Source: a virus. Taken from it: a DNA stretch of 64,000 nt. Position 1 is the first letter of the stretch; the number at the start of each line of letters is the position of its first letter. The stretch lies in IMG/VR virus record IMGVR_UViG_3300044631_002636, positions 1 to 64,000 of that record; one strand, given 5' to 3'. Below, in pieces: positions 499 through 54,901 of the stretch. The notes beneath the pieces are model-generated. The model had not been told where the DNA came from. It was given only the letters and a program-made list of their open reading frames with translations, and searched no databases. Made by a program: the position numbers and the translations under genes.

Positions 499-3400
499 AT
501 GGCAATCTCTTCTCAAAAACTATTCGGATCTACAGATAAAGGTGGTGGTATTGTTTTAGCAAACAGAAGTAGTGCTAGTGCCATTGTTAGAAAATCACCT
601 CTGGTTGTAAAACAAAAAACAATAAAACTACGTAATCAAAAATCAAAAGAGTCTTTTAATTTTGATAAATTAATTCCAAACTTAAAGGCGATTGACAAGA
701 GCGTTAAGTTTATTGATAAAACATTCAAAAAGATTATAGATACAAACAGTAAAATCTTATCGGAAAAAGATAAACAATCTAAAGTTAAGAGAAGAAAAAC
801 AAGAGAAGATGATCTTGAAAAACAAACTAAAAAAGAACAACAAGAAGGAAAGGGAAGTGGAATTTCTATACCTAAACCAAGTTTCTTAGATAAAATTCTA
901 AACTTCTTTTTCTGGACAATTGCTGGAAATTTATTTTTCAAATTCTTTACAAAAGAAAATATAGATAAAGCAAATAAAGCTTTTCAAACAATAATTTCTA
1001 TTGGAAAGTTTATAGGAACAGTATTTGTTAAAACTGTAGAAGGATTAGTTAATTTTATCGATTTTAGTTATGAAAAATTTGATCAAATAAGAGGATTTAT
1101 CAAAAAAGTTGGTGGCGAAGGATCTCTTAAAATATTTGATCAATTCTCTGGAATGTTGAATAAGGTTATTAATGGCGCAATTATCCTTGCGATACTACTC
1201 TCAAAATCAAAAGGTTTTGGAGGCCGCGGCGGTAGAGGAAGAGGAGGTCGTGGAGGAAGAGGAGGTCGTGGTGCTGGCGGCGGTGGTGGTGATGATGTAG
1301 GTATTACAGGTAGAAGAGCAGGAAGAACTAGAGCAGTTGATCCAGCTGCTGCTAGAAAATATGCGGAAAGATATGGTAGAGATGCTGCAATAAAGAAATT
1401 TGGAAAAGATGGCGTAAGATCTCTTGGCGGAAAGTATGGAAGATCTTCAGCGACAAATTTTGCTAGAAAAGGAGCGGTCTCACTTCTTGGTAAAGGGGGA
1501 ACAAAAGCAGCACTAAAAATTGTTAGACCTTTTGTTAAAAGATTACCTCTGATTGGAGGTCTGATTGATTTCGGTCTCTCGGTCGCAATGGGAGAACCTT
1601 TAGGAAGAGCAGCATTTAAAGGAATTGGTGCTGCTATACTTGGTGCTATTGGTACTGGTTTTGGTGGTCCTATAGGAGCTGTTCTAGGAGGATTTGCTGG
1701 AGACTGGGCAGGTGGAAAACTCTATGATATTTTCTTTGGCAATAAGAAAAATAATGCAGGGACACAGGGAAGAGTTTATGGTGGATTGATTGCTGCTCAT
1801 GCAAATGGTGGCAATATTATTGGAGAAGGTGGAAGAACTCTAAAGAAGGATGATGAGCAAACTGCAAAATTACAAAAAAGAAGAAATATTAAATCCCCCC
1901 AAAAAGTTGAAGTTGGTAAAGATGTTGGAGGAATTAATAAGGTTCAAGAACTTTTTCCTAAGAGTCCAGACCAAAATAAGAAAAGTCCATTCGATGCATT
2001 ATTATCACTTTCATATACTCTAAAGAAAATTCCTTTTATTGGAAGAATAATGGGAGCTGCCATTGATCTAGCATTAGGTCAAAGCATTACAACAGGATTC
2101 TTTAAAGAAGTTTCTGATTCCTTAATAAATCTTTATGGGGTTTTAAAGGGATCAAAAACTATTAATAGATTATATTCAGATGTTTCTAGAGATATTACTA
2201 GAATGGAAGAAGGTGGGGAAGTAAAAAGTGTTACTGCAGGAAGATATTTAAGAATTGATCAGAATAAAGGTGTAACTACAGAGGAGATGAGAAACGCTAT
2301 TGAAAATAGCTTGAGACAATCAACATCAAGAGATGTTACAAAAGCAGTAAATATTATTAGAAGACAACTTGGTTTAAAGGAAATAGGAGAACCAACCCCA
2401 AAAGATGGAGATCCTCAAGGAAAAGAAGATGAATCTGCATCTTTAGATGTTGGTGCTCCTGGAGAGGGTGGAACTGTCACTGGTGGAAATGCAGATTTTT
2501 GGACATTAGTTGCAATCTCAAGAATGGAGGATGCAGATCCTCAGGGATCTGCTGACGTTGCCCAATCAATTTATAATAGAGTTGCGTCTGGAATATATGG
2601 TGGCAAAACCATTAAAGAAATAGTTCTAAGGCAAGGTCAATATGAACCAACTTGGAAATATCCAAAAAGAGGTAGAACTGGAGTTCCAAATCCAGAATGG
2701 CATAATATTAAAGATCTTGATACTGCTTCTGCCGCAACAGGAATTTCTAAGGGAGATTTGCAAAGAACAGCAGCTGCTTTAAAAAATTCAAAATATCAAG
2801 AAGAGGCAAGAAAATTTGTTGGGGGAAGAACTGATTTTATGGGAGGTGGTAATAAAAAAGGTGCTGAAGATGTTCAGAGAACAACCAATACACCCAATAA
2901 CTTTTTTGGGTGGTTTGTAGGACCTGCAGCTAAAGCTTATGGAGCTAAAAATCCAGGTGCAGCAAAAGCTCCACAACTTGGTGATATTGTTGTTATGGGA
3001 GGAGGTGCTGGTGGTGGAAAAACTGCTGCAGGTGGAAAAACAATCGTTGAAATTGGAAAATCTTTATTAAAACAAGGATTCAAAGTAGCAGAGCATCCAG
3101 ATTTTACAAAGCATGTTGGATATACTCCAGGAAAAGGATCAGTTTCTAGTGTTCATAAAGGAAGGGGACACTATGAAGGAAGAGCACTTGATGTTACTGA
3201 CTTTAGGGGATCATTAGAAGATTCTAAAGCAAGATATCGTTCTGTCTTAAATTCTTTGTATGAGAATAGAAAAGGACAAAACATTAATATGCTAATTCAT
3301 GATAGTTGGGGAGCAATGTATGGGGCGGGGGCTCCTAAAGAGGGTCCAGGAGGACATGGACACCCAACTCACATGCACGTTGAAACGACAGGTAAACAGG

Positions 3401-3522
3401 GTGGAGGTGTTATTAATACACCATCAAGGGATCCTAATAAATATAATAGCCTCCAGAAATACCAGAGTTATGGTGGAGGATCTTCAGTGTTAGCTGTCAA
3501 AACAGTGTATATTAAGACCTAA
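499..3522 (+). CDS. Tail/hub structural protein with two cell-wall hydrolase domains
   Basis: A 1,007-residue protein. The N-terminus is Lys/Glu-rich and coiled-coil-like (about 40-120), followed by hydrophobic stretches (about 130-150 and 220-235), an Arg-Gly-Gly-rich linker (about 240-265) and a Gly/Ala-rich hydrophobic segment (about 345-405). Residues 663-820 resemble SleB-type cell-wall hydrolases (ISRME..., IYNRVASG, GQYEP). Residues 850-965 resemble M15/VanY-type D-Ala-D-Ala peptidases: H891-x2-G-x-A-x-D898 matches the SxHxxGxAxD zinc motif, and H958-x-H960 follows. Together these would cut glycan and peptide during tail penetration. The position just before the hub gene suggests a tape-measure or hub-associated lysin, which is inference. 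Start ATG follows 4 nt after the previous stop. Confidence 0.8.
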   Translation: MAISSQKLFGSTDKGGGIVLANRSSASAIVRKSPLVVKQKTIKLRNQKSKESFNFDKLIPNLKAIDKSVKFIDKTFKKIIDTNSKILSEKDKQSKVKRRKTREDDLEKQTKKEQQEGKGSGISIPKPSFLDKILNFFFWTIAGNLFFKFFTKENIDKANKAFQTIISIGKFIGTVFVKTVEGLVNFIDFSYEKFDQIRGFIKKVGGEGSLKIFDQFSGMLNKVINGAIILAILLSKSKGFGGRGGRGRGGRGGRGGRGAGGGGGDDVGITGRRAGRTRAVDPAAARKYAERYGRDAAIKKFGKDGVRSLGGKYGRSSATNFARKGAVSLLGKGGTKAALKIVRPFVKRLPLIGGLIDFGLSVAMGEPLGRAAFKGIGAAILGAIGTGFGGPIGAVLGGFAGDWAGGKLYDIFFGNKKNNAGTQGRVYGGLIAAHANGGNIIGEGGRTLKKDDEQTAKLQKRRNIKSPQKVEVGKDVGGINKVQELFPKSPDQNKKSPFDALLSLSYTLKKIPFIGRIMGAAIDLALGQSITTGFFKEVSDSLINLYGVLKGSKTINRLYSDVSRDITRMEEGGEVKSVTAGRYLRIDQNKGVTTEEMRNAIENSLRQSTSRDVTKAVNIIRRQLGLKEIGEPTPKDGDPQGKEDESASLDVGAPGEGGTVTGGNADFWTLVAISRMEDADPQGSADVAQSIYNRVASGIYGGKTIKEIVLRQGQYEPTWKYPKRGRTGVPNPEWHNIKDLDTASAATGISKGDLQRTAAALKNSKYQEEARKFVGGRTDFMGGGNKKGAEDVQRTTNTPNNFFGWFVGPAAKAYGAKNPGAAKAPQLGDIVVMGGGAGGGKTAAGGKTIVEIGKSLLKQGFKVAEHPDFTKHVGYTPGKGSVSSVHKGRGHYEGRALDVTDFRGSLEDSKARYRSVLNSLYENRKGQNINMLIHDSWGAMYGAGAPKEGPGGHGHPTHMHVETTGKQGGGVINTPSRDPNKYNSLQKYQSYGGGSSVLAVKTVYIKT

Positions 3523-3524
3523 AA

Positions 3525-4859
3525 ATGGCAGAAAAGAAGTACGCAAATACGCCAGCTGAAACTGGCCAAGCAGTAATTAGTACATATACGATCACTCCGA
3601 ATGGTGGCGGAGAAGTAATCAAGGTTTCTAATAGTCAGAATCTTGGTGGATTTGCAGAATTGCAATATTTTGAAAGCATTTTCGATACAACAATAAGAGC
3701 AACATCAAAAATTGTTGATGTAAGTGGGCCCACTGGAGGAGACCTTAATATAGTTGATAAAGCAAAGTTAACCTCTGGAGAAAAAATAAAAATATCTTTG
3801 CAGGATGGTTATAAAAATAAATTAGATTTGGATTTAATTTTAAAAAATTATAATTATGTACAGGATACTAAAGGAGTTCTTGTTGATTTGAATATGTGGT
3901 CGCCAGACATGGTTGAAAATGAAGATACTAAGAAAAGAGTAATTAAGCAATATGAAGGATTAATATCAGATTCAGTAAGTGATATATTAAAAAATACTTT
4001 AGGCACATCTCTTAAAGTTGATGTTGATACTTCACTTGGAAATTTTACATTTCAAGGAAATAAAGCGACTGCAACTCCATACGATCAATGTTTGTGGTTA
4101 GCTTCACGTTGCGTTCCTGATTTCTCTGGAGCGAAGGGAAAACTTGCTGGATACTTATTGTATCAAACCTCAGATTCTATAAAGTTTAAATCTATTGATA
4201 AATTATTTTCAGAGTCTCCAAAAGCAAAATTCATTTATAATGAAAAAGTTGAAGAAGCAGCTCCTCCTGGATATGATGCAAAAATTATGGATTATCAATT
4301 CAATAAGAGTATGGATATTGAGAACATGATGAAAGGTGGAACTTTTTCTCAATCAGAATCTATAACAGTAGATCCATATAAAACAAAATACAAAGAAGCA
4401 TCTCCTTTTGATGCAATAACTCAAAATCTAAAAAAGAATAATGCTGGAAAAGATATTCCTATTATTGCAGAGGCATTAGACTTTGCTAATAGGACATTTA
4501 AAATTAATATGAGACCTTTAGATACTGGTCAATTAAAACCTATAGACAAAAAGAAATCTAAAGAGCAAAACCTATTACCTGATGAAATTATGCGTCAAGC
4601 AAGAGCGCGTTATAATCAATTGAATACTTCAAATTTAAAAATAGTAATCCCATTAAATGTGAAACTTCACGCTGGTGATATTATCGAAGTTACTTTCCCT
4701 GAAAACAAAGGAGGAAAGGCACCACTAAAACTAACTAAACGAAAAAGTGGCAGATACATGATTGAATCTTTAGCACATAAAATTGGACTATCAAAAATGA
4801 CAAATACTGCAAATACAACTGCATTAACATTAATTAGAGACACTGAAGGTAAAAAATAG
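3525..4859 (+). CDS. Baseplate hub protein, gp27-like
   Basis: A 444-residue protein starting 2 nt after the hydrolase gene. The N-terminal half has a beta-rich pattern (LGGFAELQYFESIFD, then KLTSGEKIKISL) of the kind found in gp27/GpD-type hub proteins that form the ring holding the spike. The C-terminus (KLHAGDIIEVTFPENKG, then GRYMIESLAHKI) resembles the closing hub domain of such proteins. The gp5-like OB-fold gene follows after only one small gene, which supports hub identity. No enzymatic motif is seen. The assignment rests on pattern and synteny; a structural comparison with T4 gp27 would settle it. Confidence 0.65.
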   Translation: MAEKKYANTPAETGQAVISTYTITPNGGGEVIKVSNSQNLGGFAELQYFESIFDTTIRATSKIVDVSGPTGGDLNIVDKAKLTSGEKIKISLQDGYKNKLDLDLILKNYNYVQDTKGVLVDLNMWSPDMVENEDTKKRVIKQYEGLISDSVSDILKNTLGTSLKVDVDTSLGNFTFQGNKATATPYDQCLWLASRCVPDFSGAKGKLAGYLLYQTSDSIKFKSIDKLFSESPKAKFIYNEKVEEAAPPGYDAKIMDYQFNKSMDIENMMKGGTFSQSESITVDPYKTKYKEASPFDAITQNLKKNNAGKDIPIIAEALDFANRTFKINMRPLDTGQLKPIDKKKSKEQNLLPDEIMRQARARYNQLNTSNLKIVIPLNVKLHAGDIIEVTFPENKGGKAPLKLTKRKSGRYMIESLAHKIGLSKMTNTANTTALTLIRDTEGKK

Positions 4860-4871
4860 ATTATAATCCAT

Positions 4872-4879
4872 AATAAATA
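4872..4879 (+). promoter_or_regulatory. T4-type late promoter box AATAAATA
   Basis: One mismatch to the T4 late box TATAAATA, in the short gap between the hub gene and the CP12-like gene and about 22 nt before its ATG. The same kind of box recurs in front of most structural genes here. Confidence 0.45.
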
Positions 4880-4898
4880 AGACAAACGCTATTGTCTT
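4879..4898 (+). promoter_or_regulatory. Leader hairpin before the CP12-like gene
   Basis: AAGACAA and TTGTCTT form a 7-bp stem with a 6-nt loop, ending 2 nt before the ATG at 4901. No Shine-Dalgarno sequence is visible, so the hairpin occupies the place where a ribosome site would be. It could modulate translation; whether it lies fully inside the transcript depends on the exact late start site. Confidence 0.4.
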
Positions 4899-4900
4899 AT

Positions 4901-5122
4901 ATGGACAACAAAAGAACACTGTCTCAACATATTGAGCAAGATAAAAAAATATTAGATGATCCACAGACATCTCCACAATCACGTAGACATACTGAAGATG
5001 AATTGATTTCTTTAGAATCATACAAAGAAAATCATCCTGGAGATGAACATGACCCAACCCCTCTAGAATTATATTGTGATTCAAACCCAGAGGCTTTAGA
5101 GTGTAGAATTTATGAGGATTGA
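4901..5122 (+). CDS. cp12: CP12-like Calvin-cycle regulator
   Basis: A 73-residue acidic protein. Its C-terminus (LELYCDSNPEALECRIYED) matches the C-terminal half of cyanobacterial CP12, with the redox cysteine pair C59-x8-C68 and the acidic YED tail. CP12 bridges GAPDH and phosphoribulokinase and shuts down the Calvin cycle; cp12 is an established auxiliary metabolic gene of cyanophages. The N-terminal cysteine pair of plant-type CP12 is absent, leaving a short helical region (SRRHTEDELISLESYKE). The ATG at 4901 is preferred over the in-frame TTG at 4892, which sits in the leader hairpin. It is lodged between hub and spike genes, 5 nt before the latter. Confidence 0.8.
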   Translation: MDNKRTLSQHIEQDKKILDDPQTSPQSRRHTEDELISLESYKENHPGDEHDPTPLELYCDSNPEALECRIYED

Positions 5123-5127
5123 TTTAA

Positions 5128-7503
5128 ATGTATTTTCAGGTTGAAACATCTCAACAACAAGGAACTGCGACCAGCGGTGTCATTAGAGGCATCATTGGGA
5201 AGGAAGTAACTTGGTGTACCAATGAAGAAAGAAAAAAATGGACACAACCTGGAGTAATTACTGGGTTTGGTCAACGTTATAGAGTTCGTATCGTTGGAGT
5301 ACATGACCAAAAAGAAATACCTGATGAGAAATTGCCAGTATGTAGCGTCTTAATGCCAGTTACTGCTGGAAGTGGACATGCAAATGCTTCACAGACGGCA
5401 AATATTAAGGAAGGTACTTGGGTTAAACTTGAAGCTCAAGATGGTGCTGATGGTGCAGAATATCTTATTGTAGGTATTTTACCAAACGATTCTCAAAATC
5501 AAACTCTAGGTTCTGCTAACGATAATAAGGGATTTGATAATAAAACTGGATATGGAAAAGATCCATATAGGTCATCTGATGGAGTTGCCGAATTTGGAAT
5601 CAAAGGTGGTGGAGGAAAAACAGAATCAAATTCTGGGAGTGATACTGTAGAAAAAATTAAGATAGATGATGATCAAGAATATGATGGAAAAAAAGAAACA
5701 ACTTTACCGTCAAAAAGAAAATGTGGAGGTGATGAAACACAAGGTATTCAAATTTTTCTTCGTGATTTAATTCAAGATGTTGAAAGACTACAAGATCCTT
5801 TGAATTCTATATCAGCAAAACTTAGTGGAATTTCTGGAGGAATTGATGGACAAGCTGATGCTTTATGTCAAAAAGCATCTGATTATATTTCTGGTAAATT
5901 AAAAAATACTGTTGAAGAAATTAGAAAAAATACTTTAGATCTGATTCAGCAGAAAGTTAAAAAGGAATATGGTAAAGTCTGGGAAGAAGATAGACCTAAG
6001 TTAAAGAAAACTCAAGATAAAGTCTGGGAATTGATAAGTTGCCTTTTCAATAAATTTATCGATTCAATACCAAAAATTGTTAAAGGGATTGTATGTCCAC
6101 TATCTAAAAAACTAGTTAACGTTCCTTCATGTATTGCTCAAAATGTAGCTGGATCAATTCTTGGTCAGATTTTGGGACCTTTGATTGCTCTGATCAGTAA
6201 CCTACTACAACCTCTTTTAGCACTTCTGGGTATTGGTGGAGGAATTAGTGGTATTTTAGGTCTTATTCAAGCACTGGTTGGATTCTTCTTATGTGAAAAA
6301 GAAGAAGATTGTAAGAGTTTATTGACTTGGAGTTTGTGGGATGGCCCTGGAACGATAGCAGGAATGCAAAGTCAGTTTAATCTCACTGCAATATTTGGTG
6401 CCGCTGCTGGATTCGCAAGTCAAATTTCTGGTTTGATTGGTCAGGTTCAGAGTGCAGTTAGTAGTGCATCTGCTAATTTTGCCACAATGGTAAATATTGG
6501 AAGTGCAATATCATCTATAGTTTCTGGTGTTAAGGGATGTAGTGGTGATTCTAAAAAATGCGGACCACCTACAGTTGACTTTTTTGGACAACTTAAAAAT
6601 GCCACTGCAAATGCTGTAGTCAGTGCTGCTGGTGATTTATTAGCAGTTGATCTTGTAAATGCAGGAAGTACCTTTGGAATTAATAATTCGCCTGAAGTGA
6701 TGATTCAAGATACTTGCAGAAAAGGTTCTGGAGCAGCAGCAATCGCAGAGTTTGCACCTGCTGGAGGAGGCGCTCCTGCTGGAGGTGGCGCTCCTGCTGG
6801 AGGAGGCGTTCCTACTGGTCAGTTTGTTCTAACTAATGTTTTAATTGATACTCCTGGTGATGGATATCTGCCAAAGCCAGATGGAAGTAAAGGAGGAGAT
6901 GGGAGAGAGTGGGCAAAACCAAATCAAACCATTGTTAAAAGAGAAAATAAAGATTGGGAACGTCCTTTTTCTCCTGGACAAAAAATTATTTTAAAACCAG
7001 GAGATGAAATAACTCTTCCTGAGAATAGTAAAATAGACTTTCCAATTCCTTTATTTGGTGGAGTTACTACTGTTATTACTAAAGATATGACTACTGATGT
7101 TATGGAAATAACTGCACCTTTGCCAGTGGAACCAGAAGAAGTTCCACCTAAAGGAAATGCTGATACTTATGGCGTATTCTTAACAATATGTGATCCGAGA
7201 GTTGTAAGAAAAGGTTGGAACTATCAACCAACAGATAAAATAAAAATATATCCAGACAGTAATGGAGCGGAGTTTGAACCAGTGTTTGGTCCAAATGGAA
7301 CCTTAGAGGAGATTAGAGTCATAAATCCTGGAAATGGATTTGACTTTTGGCCAACGATATATGTTGAAAGTGACACTGGTTACAATGCAAAAATCCTCCC
7401 AAATTTTTGTGTAAATAGAGTAGACGAAGTGAAGGAAGTTCCAGCAGGAGTTCCAATCATACAAGTCGTAGATTGTGTTGGAAGACTTATCCCAGAGAAC
7501 TAA
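5128..7503 (+). CDS. Baseplate hub/spike protein, gp5-like OB-fold
   Basis: A 791-residue protein. Residues about 10-130 look like the gp5/VgrG OB-fold: a ring-forming beta barrel with YRVRIVGVHD, SVLMPVTAGSG, and EGTWVKLEAQDG followed by YLIVGILPND. The middle holds an amphipathic Lys-rich helix (about 255-310) and a long hydrophobic Gly/Ala/Leu region (about 330-520). An APAGGG tandem repeat sits near 546-560. The C-terminal 200 residues carry beta-rich modules (NAGFD/GDGYLPKP-type). I see no T4-lysozyme catalytic motif and no terminal beta-helix; the needle is encoded by the next gene. Likely role: central spike trimer of the baseplate. Confidence 0.75.
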   Translation: MYFQVETSQQQGTATSGVIRGIIGKEVTWCTNEERKKWTQPGVITGFGQRYRVRIVGVHDQKEIPDEKLPVCSVLMPVTAGSGHANASQTANIKEGTWVKLEAQDGADGAEYLIVGILPNDSQNQTLGSANDNKGFDNKTGYGKDPYRSSDGVAEFGIKGGGGKTESNSGSDTVEKIKIDDDQEYDGKKETTLPSKRKCGGDETQGIQIFLRDLIQDVERLQDPLNSISAKLSGISGGIDGQADALCQKASDYISGKLKNTVEEIRKNTLDLIQQKVKKEYGKVWEEDRPKLKKTQDKVWELISCLFNKFIDSIPKIVKGIVCPLSKKLVNVPSCIAQNVAGSILGQILGPLIALISNLLQPLLALLGIGGGISGILGLIQALVGFFLCEKEEDCKSLLTWSLWDGPGTIAGMQSQFNLTAIFGAAAGFASQISGLIGQVQSAVSSASANFATMVNIGSAISSIVSGVKGCSGDSKKCGPPTVDFFGQLKNATANAVVSAAGDLLAVDLVNAGSTFGINNSPEVMIQDTCRKGSGAAAIAEFAPAGGGAPAGGGAPAGGGVPTGQFVLTNVLIDTPGDGYLPKPDGSKGGDGREWAKPNQTIVKRENKDWERPFSPGQKIILKPGDEITLPENSKIDFPIPLFGGVTTVITKDMTTDVMEITAPLPVEPEEVPPKGNADTYGVFLTICDPRVVRKGWNYQPTDKIKIYPDSNGAEFEPVFGPNGTLEEIRVINPGNGFDFWPTIYVESDTGYNAKILPNFCVNRVDEVKEVPAGVPIIQVVDCVGRLIPEN

Positions 7504-10508: not shown

Positions 10509-10580
10509 GCCCTTGTAGCTCAGTGGTAGAGCAACGGTTTTGTAAACCGTTGGTCGCTGGTTCAAATCCAGTCGGGGGCT
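10509..10580 (+). tRNA. tRNA-Thr (UGU)
   Basis: Complete cloverleaf: acceptor GCCCTTG pairs with CGGGGGC with two G-U pairs, D-arm AGCTCAGTGGTAGAGC, anticodon stem ACGGT/ACCGT around loop TTTGTAA (anticodon TGT), T-arm with GGTTCAAATCC. CCA is not encoded. It reads ACA, a favoured codon in the AT-rich structural genes of this phage. Confidence 0.95.
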
Positions 10581-10584
10581 CTCT

Positions 10585-10666
10585 GTCGATGTGGCGGAAT
10601 TGGTATACGCGCTGGGTTTAGGTTCCAGTGGAGCAATCCTTGAAGGTTCAAGTCCTTTCATCGACA
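10585..10666 (+). tRNA. tRNA-Leu (UAG)
   Basis: Class II tRNA with acceptor GTCGATG/CATCGAC, D-arm TGGCGGAATTGGTATACGC, anticodon loop TTTAGGT (anticodon TAG), a short variable arm and T-arm GGTTCAAGTCC. CCA is not encoded. It reads CTA codons. It lies 4 nt after tRNA-Thr, so both are cut from one precursor. Confidence 0.93.
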
Positions 10667-10686
10667 TACATTAACATTAGAAGTAA

Positions 10687-10866
10687 ATGAAAATTAATTT
10701 GTGGTATTGTAAAGACATGGGGCAGTGGAGGTGGACTCTAACTGAGGACTCAAGACCCATAGTTAAACAAGAATCTGGTCAAAGACCAGATTTAAGACTC
10801 GCAATGAATGACGTTGCAAATACTGTCGAATACCTTCTAAGTAGTAAACTTGACAAAAATAATTAA
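10687..10866 (+). CDS. Small hypothetical protein
   Basis: A 59-residue frame with a plausible folded sequence (WYCKDMGQWRWTLTEDSRP, then AMNDVANTVEYLLSSKL). An alternative in-frame ATG lies at 10717. The last codons overlap the -35 box of the strong promoter at 10850. Amphipathic C-terminal helix; no family recognised. It sits between the tRNAs and the fibre locus. Confidence 0.55.
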   Translation: MKINLWYCKDMGQWRWTLTEDSRPIVKQESGQRPDLRLAMNDVANTVEYLLSSKLDKNN

Positions 10867-10878
10867 ATATCTTATAAT
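10850..10878 (+). promoter_or_regulatory. Consensus sigma70 promoter
   Basis: TTGACA (10850-10855), 17-nt spacer, TATAAT (10873-10878): a perfect match to the bacterial consensus and the best promoter in the window. It overlaps the 3' end of the 59-residue gene and points to a terminator only about 50 nt beyond the predicted start, so its product should be a short RNA. Confidence 0.85.
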
Positions 10879-10954: not shown

Positions 10955-10963
10955 GAATAAATA
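10955..10963 (+). promoter_or_regulatory. Late promoter box AATAAATA
   Basis: AATAAATA lies just behind the terminator and about 30 nt before the 10993 start codon, so late transcription of the fibre locus can begin independently of the early unit. Confidence 0.5.
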
Positions 10964-36652: not shown

Positions 36653-36659
36653 ATAAATA
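36652..36659 (+). promoter_or_regulatory. Late promoter box AATAAATA
   Basis: One mismatch to TATAAATA, touching the stop of RCC1 gene 3 and 20 nt before the first gene of the glycan operon, suggesting that the glycan genes are expressed late. Confidence 0.45.
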
Positions 36660-36679
36660 GATAAAACTGATTTATATCT

Positions 36680-38032
36680 ATGAATCCACTTGAGTTGGTA
36701 GCAAAAACATTACATTCGTTTAGTGAAAAAGAACTAACTTATCAATTGTTGGATGCCTTTGGGAAAAGAGCGCAAACAGTCCAACAATATGATGATGTTG
36801 CAAAGATATTTTTTGAAGTCAAAAACTTTCCCAAAGCAATTGAATATGGGGAAAAGGCACTTCAACAAGCAAAGACAAAACAAGAAAGATATATCCTTTC
36901 AAAAAATTTAATTAATGCGTATAATCAGTCAAATTATCCAGAAAAAGCACTTACTCAAATAGAGTTTTGTAAGAAAATAAATCCACAGGATTCAGAATTA
37001 TTATTGGAAGAAACTTTTGCATACTCGGCATTAGGACAGAAAGATAAATCTGAAAAACTATTATTCAATCTTCTTCAAAAGAAACTGCCAGAAGAGATTG
37101 AAAGAAAAGCATATCACAATCTATCTGGACATTACTTTAGAAAGAATGATATAAAAACTGCATTAAAGCATTTTTTAAGAGCTGGTGAAATTGAAGCATA
37201 TAAGAATCAAAAACTACCCGAATATGAAAAGTGGGACGGAACTGTTACTCCAGGAAGAACTATTATTATTGATAACCAATGCGGAGCTGGTGATGAAGTG
37301 ATTCATATTCGCTTCATGAAACATCTTAAAGAATTGGGAATGAAACCAATTTGGAATTCTACCCGAAGGGAACTTGTAGAATTATTCAATTACAATGGAT
37401 ATGATGCAGTCTGTTGTTGGGATAAACCACAATTTCCTAAAGATTCTTGTTGGGTTTATGGTCTAGCACTGCCTTATCATCTAGACTTGAATGTTGAAGA
37501 ACTTGGAAAGCATCCTTATCTGAAACCAATTGCAGAAATTGATGAGAAGTGGAAATGGATGCATAAAGACGAAGGTTTTAAAGTAGGATTATTTTGGGCA
37601 TCAAGTTCTGGATATGAACAGAATCAGTTTAGAAGCGTAAGTCTTGATGATTATATGAGTGTTCTTAAGAACAAAAACATTTCACTCTATTCATTACAAA
37701 CACATGCTGACAATAAAGACGCAGACAAATATCCAGAAATAAAACAATCTTTATCTATTCCCGATAGAGAATATGCGGATACTTTCTCAATCATCAATAA
37801 CCTAGATCTTATAATCACATCATGTAGTTTTACTGCTCATGTTGCAGCATCTTTAGGAAAAGAAGTTTGTGTATTTGTTCCTATTATGGAATATTATGTT
37901 TGGATACATGAATCAGGAAAGTCTGCTTGGTATGGAGACAATGTTCATATATTTAAGCAAGTAAAACCTAGAGATTGGAAAGGTCCAATAAATAAGTTGA
38001 GTGAATTTTTAATGAATAGAGGGTTAACTTGA
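36680..38032 (+). CDS. TPR protein with GT-B glycosyltransferase domain
   Basis: A 450-residue protein. Residues about 1-175 are helical TPR-like repeats (FFEVKNFPKAIEYGEKALQQAKT; AYHNLSGHYFRKNDIKTALKHFLRA). From about 190 a heptosyltransferase/GT9-like GT-B fold follows: IIIDNQCGAGDEVIHIRFMKHL (N-terminal Rossmann Gly loop), then KVGLFWASSSGYEQNQFRS and SIINNLDLIITSCSFTAHVAASLGK, the last being the typical acceptor/donor pocket of this family. It transfers sugar from an activated nucleotide to glycan or protein; the TPR part probably binds the acceptor. First gene of an operon whose members overlap by 4 nt. Substrate unknown. Confidence 0.8.
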   Translation: MNPLELVAKTLHSFSEKELTYQLLDAFGKRAQTVQQYDDVAKIFFEVKNFPKAIEYGEKALQQAKTKQERYILSKNLINAYNQSNYPEKALTQIEFCKKINPQDSELLLEETFAYSALGQKDKSEKLLFNLLQKKLPEEIERKAYHNLSGHYFRKNDIKTALKHFLRAGEIEAYKNQKLPEYEKWDGTVTPGRTIIIDNQCGAGDEVIHIRFMKHLKELGMKPIWNSTRRELVELFNYNGYDAVCCWDKPQFPKDSCWVYGLALPYHLDLNVEELGKHPYLKPIAEIDEKWKWMHKDEGFKVGLFWASSSGYEQNQFRSVSLDDYMSVLKNKNISLYSLQTHADNKDADKYPEIKQSLSIPDREYADTFSIINNLDLIITSCSFTAHVAASLGKEVCVFVPIMEYYVWIHESGKSAWYGDNVHIFKQVKPRDWKGPINKLSEFLMNRGLT

Positions 38033-51842: not shown

Positions 51843-51889
51843 AATATAAGTGCTATAATGACCTAAATATAGAAAATATTTGGGTCATT
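51832..51889 (+). promoter_or_regulatory. Promoter overlapped by a 14-bp palindrome
   Basis: TTGAAA (51832-51837), 16-nt spacer and TATAAT (51854-51859) form a good promoter. A perfect-length inverted repeat with one T-G position (51857-51870 and 51876-51889, 5-nt loop) covers the -10 end, the start site and the leader up to the ATG at 51890. As DNA it is a plausible operator; in read-through RNA it would hide the start codon. Confidence 0.6.
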
Positions 51890-52216
51890 ATGCTATCAAC
51901 TCAATATCGCCTGCGATTGGAGGAAATCTGTAGAAAGATCGTCCTACATGAATCCGTAGGGTTAGAGGATATGATTTGGGCAGAGAAACTTGCTAAAGCA
52001 AATAGATCAGCTGGAACTATGCTACGTCAAGCGAGACGTAAATCTGAAAATCCAGATATGCAAGATGGTGATATGGATGACTTTTTAAATCAACTTGACA
52101 TTGGTGGTCTTGGTAATGAAAGATTTGGTCTAAGGGGATTTAATAGTGTTGATGATATTGTAGATTTTTTCAGTGACGGAAGAGATAAACCTGATGATTG
52201 GAGGCAAAGAGACTGA
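51890..52216 (+). CDS. Hypothetical protein, acidic C-terminus
   Basis: A 108-residue protein. The N-terminal 60 residues are helical (YRLRLEEICRKIVLHESVGLEDMIWAEKLAKANRSAGTMLRQARRK), basic and Arg-rich; the rest is acidic and flexible (DGDMDDFLNQLDIGG; DDIVDFFSDG). The start lies directly behind the large palindrome without a Shine-Dalgarno sequence. If the palindrome is an operator, this helical protein is a candidate autoregulator; inference only. Stop overlaps the next start (ATGA). Confidence 0.7.
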   Translation: MLSTQYRLRLEEICRKIVLHESVGLEDMIWAEKLAKANRSAGTMLRQARRKSENPDMQDGDMDDFLNQLDIGGLGNERFGLRGFNSVDDIVDFFSDGRDKPDDWRQRD

Positions 52217-54683: not shown

Positions 54684-54848
54684 ATGACTTACTCTGAAAG
54701 AAAACTGAATAGACTTTCTGATTCAGAATGGTCGGAAATGAATGCACTGAGGCAAGCAATTAATGAACTTCCACAATCAGTGTCTCCAGATAAAATGGAG
54801 CAATTTACTGAATATTTTGTTAGAAGTCTTAAAGAAAAAGGACAGTGA
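54684..54848 (+). CDS. Small hypothetical protein
   Basis: A 54-residue helical protein (SERKLNRLSDSEWSEMNALRQAINELP...). AGGAG lies 7-11 nt before the ATG, one of the clearest ribosome sites of the block. Its TGA is inside a perfect palindrome at 54845. Function unknown. Confidence 0.6.
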   Translation: MTYSERKLNRLSDSEWSEMNALRQAINELPQSVSPDKMEQFTEYFVRSLKEKGQ

Positions 54849-54866
54849 CAGTTTTAGAACTGTCAC
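54845..54866 (+). terminator. Operon-end palindrome, perfect 9-bp hairpin
   Basis: GTGACAGTT and AACTGTCAC with a 4-nt loop, starting in the stop codon of the preceding gene. Best-preserved member of the palindrome family; it may terminate transcription or bind a protein, since no T-run follows. Confidence 0.65.
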
Positions 54867-54872
54867 ATTAGG

Positions 54873-54901
54873 GTGACAACCTTCTTTTTTTTGTGTATAA
54901 T
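54873..54901 (+). promoter_or_regulatory. Promoter GTGACA-N17-TATAAT
   Basis: GTGACA (54873-54878) and TATAAT (54896-54901) at optimal spacing, with a T-rich spacer; start predicted near 54908, just before the 54924 gene. Confidence 0.7.

Follow-up and report, generated by a model that had tools for sequence, protein, structure and literature searches.

CP12 is a largely disordered protein that acts as a brake on host carbon fixation and is carried by many cyanobacterial viruses; its C-terminal disulfide-forming cysteine pair is how it docks into GAPDH. Cyanophages and cyanobacteria are known exceptions to the classical form of the protein, which the marine picoplanktonic group lacks (PMC3906501). 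A position of the phage gene "near gp5" was already described by Sullivan 2010 (PMC3037559), and in the transcriptome of P-HM2, cp12 falls with other auxiliary genes in a middle cluster that is strongly expressed in light (PMC5082946). For the middle genes of cyanophages, combinations of early and late promoters have been suggested (PMC2984593), and psbA of S-PM2 combines sigma-70 motifs with a late gp55 site and a hairpin in the 5' UTR (PMC5931967). A more distant precedent for control at the leader is gene e of T4, of which the read-through RNA is poorly translated and the late RNA well translated (PMC3014915).

Against this background we examined a cp12 gene in a viral window, by which we mean the whole stretch of 64,000 nucleotides that was analysed; it covers positions 1-64000 of a virus record of 64,785 bases that is itself probably a fragment. 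The reading that we favor, with a probability of roughly 0.85, is that of an ordinary cyanophage cp12 in a standard slot, a Calvin-cycle brake whose own gp55-type promoter would drive it late and whose translation from read-through RNA is possibly gated by a hairpin. The features of the locus are as follows.

3525..4859, + strand: gp27-like baseplate hub / tail protein gene, the upstream neighbor (phrog_350 "tail protein", 1.3e-64)
4862..4867, + strand: TATAAT hexamer, a possible host-type -10 element (a weak candidate, from sequence only)
4873..4879, + strand: late-type (gp55) promoter box ATAAATA, 28 nt before the ATG and conserved upstream of cp12
4877..4900, + strand: leader hairpin predicted by folding, with a perfect 9-bp stem (4877-4885/4892-4900) and a 6-nt loop; not in relatives
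4901..5122, + strand: cp12, encoding a 73-aa CP12 carbon-metabolism regulator (PF02672, phrog_627, 365 phage records, solved CP12 chains)
5128..7503, + strand: gp5-like baseplate hub / tail lysozyme gene, the downstream neighbor (phrog_1922 "baseplate hub subunit and tail lysozyme", 1.1e-59)

The cp12 gene and its family

The open reading frame starts with ATG, encodes 73 residues ending in CDSNPEALECRIYED, and is present in a single copy in the record. Residues 7-72 of the product match the Pfam CP12 profile (PF02672) over positions 5-70 of 70, with 49.8 bits (E 6.1e-13) against a gathering score of 22.7 bits for this family, and the PHROGs match is to phrog_627 (3.7e-29). All seven matches to solved structures are CP12 chains, including a CBS-CP12 fusion, and the part that aligns is the C-terminal segment; the protein is encoded in 365 public phage records, all of them cyanophages or marine virus fragments. 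The original prediction of a CP12-like gene with a C-x8-C redox pair is thus borne out: C59 (codon 5075-5077) and C68 (codon 5102-5104) flank the eight residues DSNPEALE, and the best matches go to CP12 rather than to any unrelated family. Judged by its sequence, the product is a genuine CP12, and at this level the family can be considered settled.

When aligned with CP12 copies of phages and hosts, the protein shows 38-54% identity to those of marine picocyanobacterial hosts, and the C-terminal cysteine pair in the GAPDH-docking segment, which also aligns with the solved CP12 chains, does not vary among the aligned phage and host sequences. Inclusion of one classical CP12, the first few residues of which are unreliable, such that the argument uses the part covered by the solved-chain alignment, leaves D51, L55-E56-L57, C59, P63, E67, and C68 as kept positions. 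C59 and C68 are the sole cysteines of the 73-aa protein, which accordingly lacks the N-terminal cysteine pair; the AWD_VEE core is absent too, with HTEDELISLE at that site. The same two elements are missing from the other phage CP12s and from those of marine Synechococcus and Prochlorococcus in the alignment. On a tree of 94 sequences, with few columns and many open forks, the host and phage copies are split at 100/98, and the window copy lies within the phage clade, its nearest sister being a hub-type locus (L045). One phage-type CP12 (L179, WTIV01000171.1) sits on a contig binned as a Euryarchaeota MAG, which is probably a misbinned phage contig. Most likely, the window protein binds host GAPDH, and putatively PRK as well; binding to host GAPDH would hinder the Calvin cycle and thereby leave more NADPH and sugar phosphate for making nucleotides.

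The baseplate hub junction and the late-type promoter

The matches of the two neighbors to phrog_350 and phrog_1922 are consistent with the labels gp27-like and gp5-like, and the product of 3525-4859 is homologous to the "tail protein" / T4-GC15 encoded just ahead of cp12 in reference cyanophages. The original prediction took this position as an insertion of a metabolic gene, due early in infection, into the baseplate hub operon, and from this it derived unusual timing control or a second role for the small protein. The hub location and the late-type box are both real, but the anomaly disappears on comparison, because cp12 lies at the gp27/gp5 junction in 15/18 reference records examined. In DSL-LC02, DSL-LC03, S-T4, Sf-CH8, S-RSM4, S-SM2, S-MbCM7 (where the gene downstream of cp12 carries another label), and S-CAM4 it stands directly between the gp27 and gp5 counterparts, and in S-SZBM1, S-RIM8, S-CREM1, Syn9, P-SSM4, P-RSM6, and S-SSM5 the same junction has small genes or tRNAs between cp12 and gp5. 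P-HM1, where it adjoins talC, S-TIM5, and S-SRM01 have it at other sites. Among 80 cp12 loci in IMG/VR, 43 show the hub arrangement, 34 are non-hub, and 3 could not be placed; searching instead from the gp27-like gene, we found cp12 in 48 of 72 complete junctions, with gp27 joined straight to gp5 in the remaining 24. The hub junction is therefore one of the standard sites of cp12, and the setting is ordinary.

The gene is not tied to the hub, since other sites are occupied with the same box, and the tree implies at least four switches between hub and non-hub sites on well-supported branches. The notion that talC or psbA are the usual neighbors of non-hub cp12 was rejected: talC adjoins it only in S-TIM5 and P-HM1 and is absent from the IMG/VR loci. 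Searches with the gp27-like and gp5-like proteins found no close relatives of the window genome. The surroundings of the hub genes include a 1007-aa protein (499-3522) with a weak Hydrolase_2 (cell-wall hydrolase) match and a C-terminal HGHPTHMHVE, encoded by a variable hub-associated lysin gene, and, downstream, tRNA-Thr and tRNA-Leu (10509-10878) with a perfect TTGACA-17-TATAAT promoter-like site at 10850-10878.

The box at 4873-4879 matches the cyanophage late consensus NATAAATA (PMC2984593), and, as in T4-type late genes, a TATAAATA/NATAAATA box stands at promoter distance from the start codon. The window has 12 copies of its heptamer, ATAAATA, all on the + strand, whereas 28 would be expected over the two strands combined; 8 of these 12 precede a gene start by 27-47 nt. 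The hexamer TATAAT at 4862-4867 has no good -35 element, and a sigma-70 scan gives no + strand promoter there, so the late-type box is the sole convincing cp12 promoter in the window. Across 96 cp12 loci, which are related and hence not independent, TAAATA is found 24-33 nt before the start in 73, whereas first-order resampled leaders give a mean of 2.6 and a maximum of 7 of 96. Broken down by class, it is present in 37/38 non-hub loci and in 36/38 hub loci with an intergenic gap of at least 16 nt, as compared to 1/20 hub loci in which cp12 overlaps or nearly abuts gp27. Thus, cp12 brings along a late-type promoter of its own, and this promoter does not belong to the hub operon itself.

One could suppose that the box serves the gp5-like gene and those after it, with cp12 a mere passenger heading the transcript. 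The next late-type box on the + strand comes only at 10957, so that the promoter at 4873 could drive gp5 and downstream genes, and it may well serve both cp12 and the gp5-like gene. However, the box is found in just 1 of the 24 gp27/gp5 junctions that lack cp12, nearly all of which are overlapping or abutting, and it recurs in 37/38 of the cp12 loci elsewhere. Being frequent at cp12 in both types of site and nearly absent without it, the box belongs to cp12 and not to gp5, which makes the passenger role unlikely. The single exception among the cp12-free junctions (L121, from IMG/VR) has a 19-nt gap and has perhaps lost cp12 and kept the promoter.

It is chiefly this linkage of the box to cp12 that renders the setting ordinary. 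The late-type box that the original prediction took as part of an unexpected setting does exist but is a conserved feature of cp12 in hub and non-hub loci alike. Capture by the operon with a second, virion-related role is accordingly very improbable: hub site and box are typical of cp12 throughout the cyanomyoviruses, cp12 elsewhere has the same box, the GAPDH-docking pair is kept in the sequence, and the protein has no match to a structural-protein family in Pfam or PHROGs. The occurrence of cp12 within a tail operon is thus no sign of a second function, and the second role once proposed for it is unsupported. The missing Shine-Dalgarno motif fares likewise as a sign of special control: it is indeed absent at cp12, but also from 35 of the 54 window genes in which the 20 nt before the start were checked, and its absence is therefore uninformative.

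We favor, on the evidence of the promoter, that cp12 is most likely made in the late or middle-to-late phase, driven by the gp55-type promoter that travels with it. The expectation of early expression conflicts with the published pattern, in which the cp12 of P-HM2 belongs to the middle cluster (PMC5082946). In P-HM1, the sister of P-HM2, TTGACATAAATAC upstream of cp12 joins a sigma-70-like -35 (TTGACA) to a late-type box; as this promoter set and the talC site differ from those seen here, the timing may vary among phages. Host CO2 fixation stops at ~2 h with S-RSM4, in which cp12 occupies the hub slot, against ~4 h with S-PM2, which lacks the gene (PMC10452541, PMC3037559). This contrast fits a metabolic role and does not require early expression, and the two phages differ in other genes too. 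More generally, an own promoter at the gp27/gp5 junction or other sites suggests that many cyanophages shut off carbon fixation in the late or middle-to-late phase.

A leader hairpin over the promoter and start codon

The only unusual feature of cp12 here is a hairpin folded over its promoter and reaching its start codon. The 5' arm of the stem overlaps the late box, the 3' arm abuts the ATG, and an outer helix (4868-4872/4900-4904) includes the start codon. In this respect the original prediction was right, the stem being perfect over 9 bp and none of 3000 dinucleotide shuffles folding as stably (MFE z -3.7 to -4.1), and the leader is the most stable among the 96 cp12 leaders. As a general cp12 feature the hairpin was rejected, given a mean z of ~0 over these leaders: it is absent from the other 95 and from that of the sister L045, and the exact pattern was not found in IMG/VR.

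According to the folding, the start codon is paired in read-through RNA and freed in RNA begun at the late promoter, the start of which we take, by the spacing in T4, to lie near 4885. Because the late box overlaps the 5' arm, a transcript from there would lack this arm, and the hairpin would form only in read-through RNA from the gp27-like gene, covering the 3' part of the promoter and the start codon; translation of cp12 may thereby be coupled to the late promoter of the gene. In the late RNA, folding predicts a different, weak hairpin around the AUG, and relief may therefore be partial. That the hairpin gates read-through translation of cp12 is a tentative proposal, which we consider possible rather than probable. 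The "unusual timing control" originally suggested thus survives in a narrow sense, as a non-conserved hairpin laid out like the late gate of T4 gene e, and not as a consequence of an anomalous setting. Were the gate real, it would show how such a phage times the arrest of host carbon fixation, but its advantage is less clear than in T4, since read-through here comes from a late operon.

A palindrome arisen by chance or mutation, for instance as a template-switch product, and devoid of regulatory effect has nearly an even chance of being the explanation. The lack of the stem in the 95 other leaders and in that of the sister accords with this, and so does the fact that, in absolute terms, 11% of the window's 55-nt stretches are equally stable when folded. 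When the layout is scored more strictly, the level of the cp12 stem is reached in 0.7% of shuffled leaders, the window having 13 leaders. The shuffle result stands against it, as do a second, stronger hairpin of like layout in the same genome and a similar stem over the start of an HNH endonuclease gene in DSL-LC03. The former is located as follows.

51853-51892: 17-bp stem, z -5.0, with the late-type box CTAAATA in the 5' arm and the AUG in the 3' arm
51890-52216: conserved phrog_507 gene, with its start codon within this stem

The layout scores of both this stem and that of the HNH gene are rarer in shuffles than that of the cp12 stem. At phrog_507 loci, the box is kept in 76/81 and the stem is not, so a hairpin conserved on this gene was rejected as well; in DSL-LC03, the phrog_507 gene comes after a recombination endonuclease subunit gene. 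The HNH case in DSL-LC03 (OR003938.1, L283:40809-40848) places the start codon in the 3' arm of a 12-bp stem enclosing TATAAATA, which recalls I-TevI of T4. A weaker like layout is found in the window at 36656-36682, where a 7-8-bp stem of TAAATAGATA...TATCTATG spans a late box and the start codon at 36680, and a strong GTGACAGTTTTAGAACTGTCAC stem at 54844-54873 lies just before a possible GTG start (54873) and has no late box.

It is conceivable, if somewhat doubtful, that late promoters in this lineage are embedded in hairpins that sequester start codons (cp12 at 4901, phrog_507 at 51890, and perhaps 36680), such that the Calvin-cycle inhibitor is translated only from its own late transcript. 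This would amount to a gate of the T4 gene e type on an auxiliary metabolic gene, so that carbon fixation would be shut off only once DNA replication had begun. The hairpin might instead stabilize the mRNA or end the upstream transcript, and here the late gp55 site and the 36-bp inverted repeat in the 5' UTR of S-PM2 psbA, proposed for light-dependent control of mRNA (PMC5931967), provide a parallel. However, the 5' arm would be missing from a transcript begun at the late box, and an intrinsic terminator was rejected because the stem is not followed by the T run of a typical one; on balance, such roles appear improbable.

Comparison with known systems

Among known systems, the window protein is closest to the cyanophage CP12s (phrog_627; PF02672; T4-GC 337; e.g., DSL-LC02, S-T4, S-RSM4, and Syn9), which it resembles in length, in the C-x8-C pair, and in the missing N-terminal pair, with 66% identity to DSL-LC02 and 67% to S-T4 and with the hub location and the late-type box common to both sides. 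Its start, MDNKRTL, is a few residues longer than in most of them and similar to that of DSL-LC02, and the leader hairpin sets its gene apart from other cyanophage cp12. The CP12s of marine Synechococcus and Prochlorococcus hosts, at 38-54% identity, have the same architecture without the N-terminal pair and AWD_VEE but form a clade separate from all phage copies (100/98). With classical CP12 (N/C type, e.g., 6gfo_E) it shares the C-terminal YCDxNPxAxECRIYxD segment that docks in GAPDH, whereas the N-terminal cysteine pair and AWD core of that form are both lacking.

The hairpin finds its closest likeness in the late-gated leaders of T4 genes e, soc, 49, and I-TevI (PMC3014915), which likewise have the late box in the 5' arm and a 3' arm reaching the start codon; in contrast to these, the hairpin here is a predicted one, lacks conservation and a Shine-Dalgarno motif, and stands before a metabolic gene in a late operon. 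The psbA leader of S-PM2 (PMC5931967) also joins a metabolic gene to a late gp55 site and a 5'-UTR hairpin, but it has sigma-70 motifs too and a longer inverted repeat, and this repeat is not described as overlapping the late promoter. The identity of this cp12 and its hub and late setting thus belong to a pattern already known, to which the hairpin adds one modest lead.
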